Source: Xiphydria camelus (lineage: Eukaryota > Arthropoda > Insecta > Hymenoptera > Xiphydriidae). Taken from it: a stretch of DNA of 64,000 nt. Every line of letters begins with the position of its first letter. The stretch's first letter is position 1. The position numbers were made by a program, and so were the translations under genes. The notes beneath the pieces are model-generated. The model saw nothing but the letters and a program-made list of their open reading frames with translations, made no database searches and was not told where the DNA came from. Below are positions 20,557 through 44,599 of the stretch, in pieces. The stretch lies in contig OY783199.1 in NCBI GenBank assembly GCA_963678675.1, positions 10,624,356-10,688,355 of the forward strand, read 5' to 3'.

Positions 20557-20592
20557 ATGCGAGTGAAGTGATATTTTTGAACTTTAATCGCG

Positions 20593-21335
20593 ATGGACAA
20601 CGAGATTTTGAGAATGAAGAAACTTGATGGAATTGAGAACTGGGGAACATGGAAATTCCAGGTAAGAATTCTCGTCAACGCGCATGGAGCAATGGAGGTT
20701 ATGACCGGCGAGTCAAAGAAACCGGTATTGGAAAGCCAAGGCGCGGCAGCAACTGCGGAGTACCAGAAAGCACTCAAGGATTGGAAGAAGCTTGATAGCT
20801 TGGCACAAAAGACGATTGTGACTACGGTGAGTCAACAACCTTTAATTCACATAATGAACTGTCAATCCGCAAAAGAAATGTGGGATATACTGCACAAAAT
20901 CTATGAAAGCAAAAACGAGACGTCTAAGCATATTTTGCAACAAAAATGGTATTCGATGGCCAAGGACGCTGAGGATGATATTTCTCTGCATATTGCAAAA
21001 ATAAAAGATCTCGTCTGTAGACTGAGTGTGCTTGGAGAGCCAGTATCAGATAGTATGACAATGGCTACAATTTTGATGGCTCTTTCGGCTTCCTATAAGT
21101 AATTTGCCACAGCGTGGGAGTCGACGCCTTTGGATCAGTGCACTTTGCCAAATCTAGTTTCCAGGCTTACTCTGGAAGAACTTCACATGAACCCGGATGA
21201 GGGTAAGCACAGCAGCGCTTTCTCGATGAAAGCAGAGAAGTATCACGGTGCGAAGGCCAAGAGGATCAAAAACCTGGAAAGTGTTTCAAGTGCGGGAAAG
21301 TAGGACACTGGAAAAAAGACTGTCGCTCGAAGGGC
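20593..21335 (+). pseudogene. copia gag remnant
   Basis: The ATG at 20593 opens a 169-codon frame with the copia Gag pattern: LDGIENWGTWKFQV near the start, AKEMWDILHKIYE and ILQQKWYSM in the middle. A TAA follows ASYK at 21100, after which the same reading continues to the zinc knuckle CFKCGKVGHWKKDC at about 21283-21324 via a frameshift. Gag packages element RNA in a virus-like particle. The stop and shift make this copy inactive. Confidence 0.8.
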
Positions 21336-21650
21336 CAAGTGAGGCCCAATGGACTTTTCGAATCAAGAGGAAGTGCTTTTATCGGCGGGATTATTTCAGC
21401 ACAGGAGCTGAGCTCTGAAAAGGCTCCGGAGGATTGGTACCTCGATTCTGGCGCCAGTCAGAATATGTCTCCAGTGTATAGCGCTTTCGTCAAGTACCGA
21501 AAATTAACCTCTCCAATATTGGTGAGAGTTGGCAACGGTGAAATCATCCAGGGAGAAAGAGTGGGAGAAAATGACATTTTCTCTTCAAACGACTCAAAGT
21601 GGGAACGAAATCACCTCGCTCCTATACTGTATGTGCCCGAGAACTAAAAT
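21336..21650 (+). pseudogene. copia protease region
   Basis: The frame continues from the zinc knuckle and contains DWYLDSGASQNMS, the aspartic protease active site (DSG), at about 21433-21471. It ends at a stop near 21647, with the reading resuming in another frame at 21599. The protease would cleave the gag-pol polyprotein. Confidence 0.75.
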
Positions 21651-22960
21651 ATAATTTATTTTCTATGTCATTAGCTCTCGACAAAGGACTCGAGCTCTCA
21701 TCTGATAACTTGAAATGTAAATTGCTTGAAAATGGGAAGATCGTTGCAGTGGGAGATAGGTACGGAGATCTCTACAAGATGCGCTTTAAATTCAACAATC
21801 AAGATCGCAGAGAAATCTCGGAACTGGTGGAAGCCCACGTTAGCCAGAGTGGAAATAAAAATCCTTCGCTGAAAATTTGGCACGAGCGCCTCGCTCACCA
21901 AAACATTCAGCATGTTTCAGAAACTTTAAGGAAATAGAACATCAACACCGAGCCAGTGGGAAATTGGCACTGCGATGGGTGCTCGCTAGGAAAGATGACC
22001 TGGAAGCCGTTCCCAAAAAGAAAAACTTCATCGAAGGAGCCTGGAGATCTGATCCATGCAGACTTGTGTGGACCCATAGAGCACCTTTCGTCTGGAAAAC
22101 CCAGATACTTTTTCCAGATACTAAAGGATGACTTTTCGCACTACAAATTCGTGTTTTTTCTACGCAAAAAGTTTGAGGTTAAAGAATACTTCCAAGATTT
22201 TCTGAGGGCATCGGAGACTCAGTTCGGGAGAAAAATTAAAGTTATAAGAACGGATAATAGGCTGGAATTCATCAACGAGGAAATGCGAAGCATTACGAGC
22301 AGGAACGGAATAAAGCACGAAACAAGTACTCCATATACACCGGAACAAAATGGGGCCATTTTTTGAATGAGAAAACCGAACAGTCGGTGAAGCAGCGCGG
22401 AGTATGCTGCATGCAAAGAAGATGAAACTCGAACTGTGGGCCGAGGCAGTTCATACGGCTTACTACGTACTCAACACGACTAGCACAAGCAGCGTAAAAG
22501 GAAAGACGCCGTACGAGTTATGGTTTGGTGAGAAACCAAGGAATCTCCATTTCAGAGTTTTCGGCACGGAAGTATATACTCACATCCCAAAGCAAAAAAG
22601 GACAAAATGGAGCCCGAAAGCCAAACAGGGTGTCTTCGTTGGATACGACGACTGCAAAAGGGCTACAGGATCTGGTTTTCGCGAGAAGCAAAAATCAATA
22701 CTTATCGGGACGTTAATTTTCTGCCAGAGGAAAAAGAAGAAAACTCACAAGAAAATGCAGTCACCGATAGCGTAGAAGAGGGTAGTTTAGAGATTCAGAT
22801 TGAATCAGAAAATTTAGAGCAGCGATGAAGAGGATTCTCAAGAGATACAGGAACTCGAAGAGGAACTCGAAGAGGAACTTCAAGAGGATCATAGGAACGC
22901 TCAACCTCTGGTGCCTTTTTTTTACAGCGAGGAAGATTTTATATCCGCTCAGGGCTGAGC
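21599..22960 (+). pseudogene. copia integrase, truncated before the reverse transcriptase
   Basis: Several frames cover the integrase. WHERLAHQN and CDGCSLGK form the HHCC zinc finger. The catalytic triad is seen as HADLCGP, IRTDNRLEF and TPYTPEQNG. Downstream are the conserved ELWAEAV, TPYELWFGEKP and GVFVGYDD segments, followed by a Glu-rich linker. Frameshifts lie near 21937, 22366 and 22660. No reverse transcriptase or RNase H follows, so the element is cut at about 22.96 kb. Described only; the frames are not joined here. Confidence 0.82.
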
Positions 22961-41579: not shown

Positions 41580-43336
41580 ACGCTTACATTCGGTGCCACT
41601 CACAATATCGACGCACCGATGATTGAAAATGATGGTAGAACTTCTAGCATATTCTTCCGGCAAAATGAACGTATGAATATTCGTTCACACAAGATACAAT
41701 ATTAGATTTCTTTTTCTTAAATAATAACGCATATGCTGTGTAGGGGGGGAGGGGGTAGGATCTAAAAATCAATTTTTTTATTGCCTTTTCTTATAGTAAA
41801 CCATTTAAAGAATGTTGTGTCAAAATTTCAAGTTAATCGGAGCAAAACTCTCAGTCATAGACCTTTAAGTCTTCCCTGCTCTAATACTGCAGAGCGGCAA
41901 GAACTCGGCGCTTTAAACGCTTTCTTCTCGAAACCAAGTTTTAAAAGCCCGTCGACATCATCATTTAAAAACTACTGCACCGATTCTTTTCAAATTTTGT
42001 ACACACTTTCTACATATAAAATACCAGACCCCAACGTTTTTCCTTTTTATTACATTAAGGGGGTTTTACATCAACAAAATGGCGGATTTTTTCTTGAAAA
42101 ATCGCAATCTTAACTTCCAACAACCACCAAAAATTTAAAAATGGGAAAAAATGTAAACAAAAAATGTTAGGGTCTAGAAAAACATCTGTTTTAACTAAAT
42201 TGCTTTGATTTTTTGATTTGAGATAATTCTACGCTGAAATATAGTGTCCACCGCAAATCATCTTTTTTAAAAGCCGTCCTCGAAAATGCTTCGTCACCGG
42301 CTTATTTCTCAATATTTTTATACGAAAAAAATACAAAATGTGCGAATGATGCTTTGTAACATGCGAAACATTAAAATATATCTACTTCAACAATAGCTCT
42401 AAAAAATTCGTAAAAATAGAGTTTTTTCCCATCCGTTAGACCCCCCCTAAGTATACCTATAACGTACAAGAAGTTAAATTTGTCGGGATATGTTATTTTT
42501 TATTCGTTTTTTACACTTTTTAAGAGCACCATAGAAATTAATTAAAATACAGCATCCAACTTCGAGAATTACTAAACATATGGGACATTTTGTCTTTAAT
42601 TCAGCACATAATAAAGTAGAATACTTTTGGAAAACCAGAAAATGTATAGTGCTTTTGTAAAACTTGTCTTATAAAAATTAGTATTCTTTTGAATAAAATC
42701 AAGAAACAGCTTAATTATATTTTAAGTAGATTAGATATGTTTCTCTGATCAATATGCTATATATAATTAGAAAACAAATGAAAATTGGGAACGAATGTTC
42801 AACGGCATTTTCGAAATAGCCCAATTCTCTTTGTAATCTGCCACAGATACCGTATAAACGAACAGAGAGAGAGAGAGAATGACAATTTTACTAACTATAC
42901 TAGCCTGCGCCTATGCCATATAATTGAGTTTAGAAACATGCTATATATCACGCATACCTGATATTTTGCAGTGGCGGTGACTTTATAAGTGAATAAATTT
43001 TTCCGCCTACTGAATTTCGACCGGTTTTATTGGTCCAATTATTCCGTACAAATTTCAATTTCGAAAAAGCTGCACATAACGTACGGCCGCACATAGATAT
43101 ACCTATAAATACGCCCCACGGCTTATTTAAAATTATTAAATACCTCGCCTTTTTGTTCCCTATTTACTGTTATCCTGTATTCGTAAAATTGTGATATCAC
43201 ATGAACCTCGCCATAAAAAGGTCGAAATTAATCAAAATCCGGATTTGGACGAGTGAGAATATCTACTGCATAAGCAACTGATCGCTCGAAATTGGAAATA
43301 TTGAGAAATAAGTAAAACATGGCTTAATTTATTATG
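41580..43336. other. AT-rich non-coding DNA
   Basis: No gene is supported. The phrase AAAATTTCAAGTTAATCGGA at 41822 resembles AAAATTTCAAGGTAATCGGA at 11552 inside the TTAA element, so part of 41.74-42.45 kb may be a related old insertion bounded by TAGGGGGG and CCCCCCTA. A GA repeat lies at 42866-42879. Confidence 0.35.
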
Positions 43337-43688
43337 TAGGAGGGATTTGTAATAATAAGGAGGATATAAGGAGGGAGAAGTACGCACGAAGCGGGAATAA
43401 CGATAACAAGAGTTTATTCACGATACGGGAGTACAAGTGGTGTGTGTGTGGGTGTGGGTGATCGGAAGAAGCCCGGTCACGGAGAAGCGTCGGAGGTACT
43501 AGCAGCAGTCAGGCCGCTCGGAGGTGGTGCGAGGGCACCGGTCCCAGGGAATGGCCGCGTCAAGTCGTGCCTGGAGCGGCTCGCGTCCCAAGCGTCGTCG
43601 TTGGTCCTCGAGGTGGGATGGCTCGTCCTCGTAGTAGATCGCCGAATAGGCGAAGCGACGTGAAAGCGTCGGCGGTGCGACTAAGAGG

Positions 43689-43727
43689 CCGCTGGGGTGT
43701 TGGCAGAGCGAAAGCTGCCGCCAGCGG
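43689..43727. repeat. Array hairpin H1
   Basis: Stem CCGCTGGGG pairs with CCGCCAGCGG with one bulged G (43720). The cap is TGTTGGCAGAGCGAAAGCTG (43698-43717), one base different from the other three caps. Confidence 0.75.
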
Positions 43728-43768
43728 GACTCAAGCCGGGACGTCGTGAGATGTCAGGGAGCGCAGCG

Positions 43769-43804
43769 CGAGAGAGTGTTCGCAGAGCGAAAGCTGCTCT
43801 CTCG
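43769..43804. repeat. Array hairpin H2
   Basis: Stem CGAGAGAG pairs with CTCTCTCG without mismatch. The cap is TGTTCGCAGAGCGAAAGCTG (43777-43796). Confidence 0.8.
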
Positions 43805-43834
43805 GTCGCGAGTGTAGATCGGTGGGCCACGAGC

Positions 43835-43869
43835 GTTAGGGTGTTCGCAGAGCGAAAGCTGCCGCTGAC
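43835..43869. repeat. Array hairpin H3
   Basis: Stem GTTAGGG pairs with CCGCTGAC using one G-U pair and one bulged G (43864), the same bulge position as H1. The cap is TGTTCGCAGAGCGAAAGCTG (43842-43861). Confidence 0.7.
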
Positions 43870-43904
43870 AGTCTCGGGGGTCGATCCCGTGGAGTGCTGC
43901 GAGG

Positions 43905-43940
43905 GGTAGTGATGTTCGCAGAGCGAAAGCTGTCACTACC
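43905..43940. repeat. Array hairpin H4
   Basis: Stem GGTAGTGA pairs with TCACTACC without mismatch. The cap is TGTTCGCAGAGCGAAAGCTG (43913-43932). Confidence 0.8.
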
Positions 43941-44599
43941 GATGCTCGCCTCCTTCTCGCTATCGTGGTTCGCCGGCCGCCTAATGTACTGCTTTGGCGG
44001 ACCTTGCCGAGAGCCCTTACCGTTAGTCCTAACGGTAAAGTCGTCGGTCGTTGGGGTGACTTCATGCGCCTCGCTAACGGTCGTGTTCGGGGTGACTCAG
44101 TGCGCCCCGAATGCCTAGCTGTCTAGCGCATGTCGCCTTGGCAGCGACTTGCGTGTTACAAGGATGAATTATCGGATACCTCTATAAATACCAAAGAAAT
44201 ATCGCATTTAAATTGTCGCATTTTCCATTCGCATCGCATTCCTACATTGTTTGATTTTGTTAAATACATTTTTATCACATACCATTTTTGTCACGTATAT
44301 TCTGATCGATATATGGTTATCAATATCATATTATCTAATATCCCGCCATAATCTTTGTTGGAGAAGATCAATCAAATTAAATTGAGAATTTATTAGATAC
44401 TAAATACTGTGACGTATAATGATCCCTTTAATAAAAGAACATCCAAGTGATACGATATAGAAGGATTAATATTCTTACTTCATCGATGCAATTGTCATAT
44501 CGATTAAAATTGTCAATATTTCCGCAATACTTGATTATTCAAATATAACGATGTTCCACATAAGCCTTTTCAAATACAGAGTTTTTTAAGACTCGAAGT

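Follow-up and report, generated by a model that had tools for sequence, protein, structure and literature searches.

HIV-2 TAR is a multi-hairpin structure, and the constitutive transport element places two loops in one long hairpin. How animal Ty3/gypsy elements choose their own RNA is, to our knowledge, poorly known. Retroviral packaging signals (Psi), in the 5' leader, are bound by Gag. Passages of PMC12789967 describe structural motifs in the 5' UTR. The UTRs of Ty1 and Ty3 are described in passages of PMC4974528, where a search for "hairpin" and for "Ty3 RNA packaging" returned 0 matches.

The window analyzed here, 64,000 nucleotides of the hymenopteran Xiphydria camelus (contig OY783199.1, positions 10,624,356 to 10,688,355), holds four hairpins with a common cap and different stems. 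We show that they form one array of a repeated RNA element, conserved across LTR subfamilies with compensatory stem changes.

Four hairpins in the window

The cap TGTTCGCAGAGCGAAAGCTG occurs four times in the window, at 43698 (with one mismatch), 43777, 43842, and 43913, at spacings of 79, 65, and 71, just as a sequence-only reading of this DNA had listed; shuffles average 0.01 matches, and 0 of 100 reached four copies. All four hairpins lie on the minus strand and were scored with R1, a model built from units, hairpins A and D among them. Hairpin A (43905 to 43940, earlier H4), the first in the RNA, has the stem GGUAGUGA and scores 55.8 bits (E 8.7e-13; R1 training sequence), and hairpin D (43769 to 43804, earlier H2), with the stem CGAGAGAG, scores 51.2 bits (R1 training sequence). 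The other two, neither of them an R1 training sequence, have bulged stems: hairpin C (43834 to 43870, earlier H3), with one C.A mismatch where relatives pair, scores 34.2 bits, and hairpin B (43689 to 43727, earlier H1; class B), with one cap change, scores 28.8 bits.

The sequence-only reading had the flanks of every copy pairing in stems of different sequence. Stem duplex energies for H1 to H4 are -16.0, -12.5, -5.5, and -12.1 kcal/mol, and since these rank 1, 6, 165, and 7 among 754 LTR positions, three of the four window stems stand out, whereas that of H3 is weak here. The claimed pairing of the flanks is confirmed. In H3 of the window, CTGAC leaves a C.A on the transcribed strand, and 9 of 9 other copies at 98 to 99% identity (L002 to L010) carry CTAAC and pair. 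The single bulge noticed in both H1 and H3 is confirmed, and relatives retain it. The cap change of H1, C to G at window position 43702, is also seen in the 92% copy L011.

The element that houses the hairpins

We queried the insect's own genome (357 Mb, 38 contigs) with window positions 43330 to 44165 and obtained at least 54 matches, among which 10 are long at 98 to 100% identity (self included) and 2 stand at 91 to 92%; the remainder are shorter or more diverged (69 to 99%). Genome copies and the flanks of 12 copies place an LTR of a Ty3/gypsy-type retrotransposon at 43365 to 44160 on the minus strand (796 bp, sense TGTAACACG...CTCCTTATA), and flank comparison gives the two copies of a target-site duplication, AGGA, at 43361 to 43364 and 44161 to 44164. 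Because the flanks set the LTR at these limits with a 4-bp duplication, the window copy is a solo LTR, and the earlier suggestion that the host block is an LTR, rich in GC and with the minus strand as its sense, gains support from the genome copies and flank boundaries alike. Other copies show, by eye, 4-bp duplications of GTCA (L006), AATA (L009), and AAGG (L012). The window LTR ends in TTATA, not in ...CA, and L011 and L012 end in TTACA. A presumed polyadenylation signal, AATAAA, lies at 43413 to 43418 (minus strand; sense LTR position 743). Further upstream in the sense direction, window positions 44018 to 44039 carry another perfect 10-bp palindrome, TTACCGTTAG-TC-CTAACGGTAA (by eye), and elsewhere in the window, at 20581 to 22775, frames resemble a degraded Copia-type gag-pol (by eye).

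Relatives supply what a solo LTR lacks, namely Ty3-like domains, paired LTRs, a primer binding site, and a polypurine tract. In copies with an internal region we see by eye TGGCGCCCAAC directly after the LTR and the purine tract AGAGGGGGAGA before it; we take TGGCGCCCAAC to be the primer binding site, with tRNA-Lys as primer. Six presumed LTR pairs are 98.5 to 100% identical. Pfam finds gag-asp_proteas and RVT_1 in L083 and, in another copy, L086, RVT_1, RT_RNaseH, Integrase_H2C2, and rve, so that pieces of two copies give internal frames in the Ty3-like order of protease, then reverse transcriptase, RNase H, and integrase; a Ty3_capsid match in these frames falls below its cut-off. The top match of the reverse transcriptase-RNase H-integrase region among solved structures is Ty3-G (chain E 1.3e-48). 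There are 982 protein relatives, and among the 120 matches listed the identity is 46 to 67% and all those named by organism are arthropods; no relatives of the reverse transcriptase protein were found in viral contigs. By eye, the Gag frame contains two cysteine-rich motifs, one of them a CCHC motif that resembles a zinc knuckle. Ty3-like gag, protease, reverse transcriptase, RNase H, and integrase together set the coding strand of the element as the window's minus strand.

Shortened and damaged copies are also present. L088 and L089 (2.8 kb) keep gag and protease and have lost pol (Pfam on L089 only), with the gag-protease frame of L089 open for 616 amino acids; their LTR pairs are 99.8 to 99.9% identical and five hairpin units are kept. 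Since the LTRs are needed anyway, these units do not separate one explanation of the array from another. By eye, 14 pairs with the same cap variant are spaced 2.7 to 2.9 kb apart among the first 100 of 118 places; the check for pol loss covers L088 and L089. Repeats in tandem, each about 24 bases long (CCAACTTCCGGGTAGAATCCTCAC), start inside the primer binding site (L083:30-120 and L089:1175-1260, by eye), and a two-LTR copy on C10 (L083 to L085) is broken by a DNA transposon that looks pogo-like by eye.

Arrays across the genome

The sense core AGNNTTYGCTMNGCGAACA has 690 exact matches in the genome compared to 0 for the reversed control, and the cap with up to two mismatches has 265 compared to 4, so the copy number that the sequence-only reading had made a check is far above chance. 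By eye, about 94 of the first 100 core matches listed have another within 200 bases. We sampled 66 loci (L001 to L030 and L088 to L123) and found 300 units, of which one chance match was dropped and 4 stayed unassigned, leaving 295 occurrences of 135 distinct sequences; two locus pairs overlap (L016/L017 and L030/L089), so that occurrences and arrays are partly double-counted and distinct sequences are not. These loci hold 70 arrays, of which 57 have four to six units (33 with five, 17 with four, and 7 with six) and 13 have one to three. Spacing between units is mostly 46 to 80 bases, and units were never found on both strands in one locus. With the R1 model, no hairpins up to E 10 were detected beyond the LTRs in the internal pieces L083 to L087. 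The D unit is doubled in L022, where the copies stand 67 bp apart and are recent duplicates.

Fold and shared surface of a unit

On the transcribed strand, a unit consists of a variable stem, an internal loop MAGNN/CA, a 5-bp stem UUYGC/GCGAA, and a triloop UMN; from the set A2 described below, RNAalifold recovers the same fold without guidance. Counting the base before AG as 1, core positions A2, G3, T11, and A17 are invariant in the 135 distinct units, with A20 conserved in 134 of them, G14 in 132, and C19 in 131; position 13 is free. The cap had been proposed to fold as CAGAGC-GAAA-GCTG with a GNRA tetraloop. We reject this fold: its 3-bp helix is intact in 46 of the 135 distinct units, the inner stem UUYGC/GCGAA in 113, and the sequence at the proposed loop would read UUUC on the transcribed strand instead of GAAA.

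Wobble pairs say little about the strand: the outer stem shows no bias (33 G-U and 33 A.C), whereas the inner stem leans toward sense (29 compared to 11). This signal is weak, and we therefore assign the strand by the direction of the coding frames. In a first comparison of energies, antisense had a small advantage (-13.2 compared to -12.0 kcal/mol), and when nine R regions were folded, 36 of 45 inner stems exceeded a probability of 0.5 in sense compared to 28 of 45 in antisense (by eye). The sense R fold disfavors the first two hairpins in L026 and L030 and hairpin B in the window copy.

Compensatory change in the stems

Pairing was counted over all assigned units, without selection, with the pairs set by eye in eight stem classes from the same sequences. 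In the outer stem, 763 of 850 cells pair (730 Watson-Crick and 33 G-U, with 33 A.C and 54 other), and in the inner stem 651 of 675 pair (622 Watson-Crick and 29 G-U, with 11 A.C and 13 other). A unit's own flanks average -12.0 kcal/mol compared to -7.8 for swapped partners, the best of 20 swaps reaching -8.7. Across 11 LTRs, 51 of 56 cases have the unit's own flank as the strongest partner, with means of -11.6 kcal/mol for own pairs and -5.1 for cross pairs. The other genomic copies examined keep paired flanks, and caps without them were what the sequence-only reading had named as evidence against itself.

For covariation, three sets were chosen by eye from 120 distinct trimmed units: A1 (74), A2 (43 of 62), and A3 (30 of 32). 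A2, which spans four stem classes without a bulge, has two-sided changes at 8 of 8 outer pairs, in 104 cells compared to a shuffled mean of 35 (standard deviation, 5); its two-sided cells, share paired, and covariation score were each reached by 0 of 500 shuffles, and the signal is lost when the partner strand is slid. Two weaker measures lie closer to the shuffles: 22 of 500 had as many covarying pairs as A2, 45 as many as A1, and 271 as many as A3, and for pair types the corresponding counts are 26, 222, and 500 of 500. The pooled A1 gives a smaller signal, since the count common to its units is limited to the two innermost outer pairs, and A3, made up of bulged classes, is 95.6% paired with covariation at 2 of 8 outer pairs. 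Two-sided changes are also found within classes, at pair 7 of class A (A-T, G-C, and C-G), pair 5 of class B (A-T and G-C), pair 2 of class D (G-C and A-T), and pair 6 of class E (T-A and C-G). The shuffle controls leave kinship among units in place; despite this, several stem classes at separate LTR places agree on paired change and point the same way. Between two subfamilies (L012 compared to L019, L020, L023, and L029), caps are 82 to 85% identical, stems 85 to 88%, and spacers 63 to 65%.

The pairing counts and the two-sided cells of A2 support the earlier claim that selection acts on a structure, of RNA or of a single strand, whose stems covary. Simple duplication, which that reading had named as the competing account, holds for some units such as the D pair of L022, while otherwise the stems differ and the pairing is kept. 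In the related copies examined, matched mutations that keep the fold mark the hairpin as a selected RNA signal of the element.

Position in the element RNA

A TATA-like position (TACAT in the window, TATAT or TATAA in relatives), presumably a promoter box, lies at 43984 to 43988 on the minus strand, 56 nucleotides upstream of the first hairpin core. Among 39 distinct upstream sequences, a set that omits L027, L028, L090, L098, and L110, 25 have a TATA-like box 47 to 66 nucleotides before the first core (27 raw matches, from which L013 and L108 were set aside by eye as truncated copies); by eye, a further 8 contain at that place an insert ending in poly(A), and the last 6 lack the box or are truncated. 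Sense-strand ATG is scarce in R-U5, taken as the stretch that starts 40 nucleotides upstream of the first core and stops roughly where the LTR does: 14 were observed compared to 55.6 expected from shuffles (hand sums over 21 LTRs, which are related and not independent; 24 were given, 3 being without a polyadenylation pattern). No sense ATG occurs in 9 of the 21, and the complementary CAT occurs 122 times in the same stretches. Because of the TATA-like box about 56 nucleotides upstream and the few sense ATGs, the array most likely opens the 5' leader of the element RNA, at the 5' end of R.

The poly(A)-ended inserts (L026, L016, L022, L023, L099, L105, L107, and L109) end at the same LTR place just before the array, in several subfamilies. 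That of L022 is a LINE (RVT_1, 2.7e-40); that of L026, which lies some 640 bases before its first hairpin, has a 12-bp duplication, CCATCGCCGGCA, at both ends, and L016 has a similar pair. This looks like a LINE that may target the promoter region of another retrotransposon.

What may read the array

The array would be the first structured part of the element RNA, and because R is repeated it would occur again in the 3' UTR. Every unit would present the same surface (MAGNN/CA, UUYGC/GCGAA, and UMN) on a stem that is free in sequence except for pairing, and the divergence of the stems may keep the units from mispairing with each other. We tentatively favor, with somewhat less than an even chance, a surface to which a single protein, most likely the Gag of the element itself, binds repeatedly for selective packaging. 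Gag is the simplest candidate since its frame has a CCHC zinc-knuckle-like motif and R is in every packaged RNA; as putative multivalent binder, it would have the element RNA selectively packaged, and perhaps dimerized, in particles. A broader proposal, that this Ty3/gypsy lineage marks its RNA with four to six Gag-recognition hairpins, with stems diverged for solo folding and carried in R at both RNA ends, is less likely than not, and we hold it with considerable doubt. We know of no retrovirus with a packaging code of such a multivalent-array form.

A host RNA-binding protein, rather than Gag, could read the hairpins for transcription, nuclear export, or stability, in the manner of retroviral TAR or export elements. 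A repeated identical surface suits any protein, and the predicted 5' end of R is, according to passages of PMC2664473, a place where several groups of retroviruses have predicted stem-loops. Among the listed reading frames no accessory protein stood out, and we regard this explanation as unlikely but worth keeping in view. A structured leader acting on translation, by slowing, shunting, or bypass of scanning, is improbable: the leader is long with few ATGs down to the gag ATG, but that same scarcity suggests ordinary scanning, and translation control has no need of one conserved cap sequence. Help with the first strand transfer of reverse transcription would suit hairpins in the predicted R, at what would be both RNA ends; since that step needs homology and not four to six copies of one cap with different stems, we judge it more improbable still.

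An equally slim likelihood attaches to an array of double-stranded DNA sites, each the palindrome TTCGC-NGA-GCGAA, that would serve a transcription factor or an insulator. Such a reading fits the inner palindrome and a spacing that is regular, mostly 46 to 80 bp, but it leaves unexplained the covarying outer stems, with flanks constrained to pair, the conserved unpaired AG and CA, and the strand-specific scarcity of ATG, and it is disfavored. That one hairpin was duplicated neutrally, its pairing never under selection, is hardly credible, recent duplicates such as the D unit of L022 notwithstanding, given stems that differ at most positions yet pair and spacers less conserved (63 to 65%) than stems (85 to 88%).

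Comparison with known systems

We found no known RNA family in Rfam: Rfam 15 at gathering score gave 0 across the whole window with 4227 families, the hammerhead ribozyme included, and a relaxed scan of 43340 to 44180 gave 3 that are far below gathering scores. A self-cleaving RNA likewise has no match in Rfam, the one resource tried for it. We also reject a bacterial or viral origin of the cap, which was found in 8 stretches of genome contigs and in 0 and 14 of viral contigs, with a single match each; 8 is about chance for 18 fixed bases in 257 Gb. In the open-licence PMC literature, we found no description of such a hairpin array, and the cap string occurs in one paper, on another subject.

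The 690 exact cores and 135 distinct units show which parts are fixed (AG, CA, and the inner stem) and which are free (the outer stem sequence), and RNA recognition in an arthropod retroelement becomes directly testable with short synthetic hairpins. A solo LTR may also carry a ready, putative module for RNA binding to other sites in the genome of its host.

The preferred reading, packaging through Gag, would resemble Psi, where the RNA of an LTR retroelement carries structural motifs in its 5' UTR (PMC12789967, in passages), the place that is predicted for the array. Psi, however, brings a few different stem-loops together, whereas here one hairpin type recurs four to six times with different stems inside the predicted R, and Gag is a putative binder. 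TAR and other retroviral R stem-loops share the predicted place at the start of R and a stem-loop that is kept while its stem sequence is less conserved (PMC2664473, in passages). TAR is present as one copy, compared to four to six here, in a different host and element group and with no known trans-activator, none having been noticed in the relatives' frames listed. The constitutive transport element is likewise part of a retroelement RNA and has an internal-loop motif that recurs on stems of varying sequence, but it joins its two loops in one long hairpin, whereas the present hairpins are separate and differ from it in sequence. The packaging determinants of Ty1 and Ty3, compared through passages only, belong to the same broad class, and the reverse transcriptase-RNase H-integrase region here matches Ty3-G. 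Cis-acting leader hairpins of LTR retroelements are known; their array form with covarying stems had no counterpart in the literature searched.
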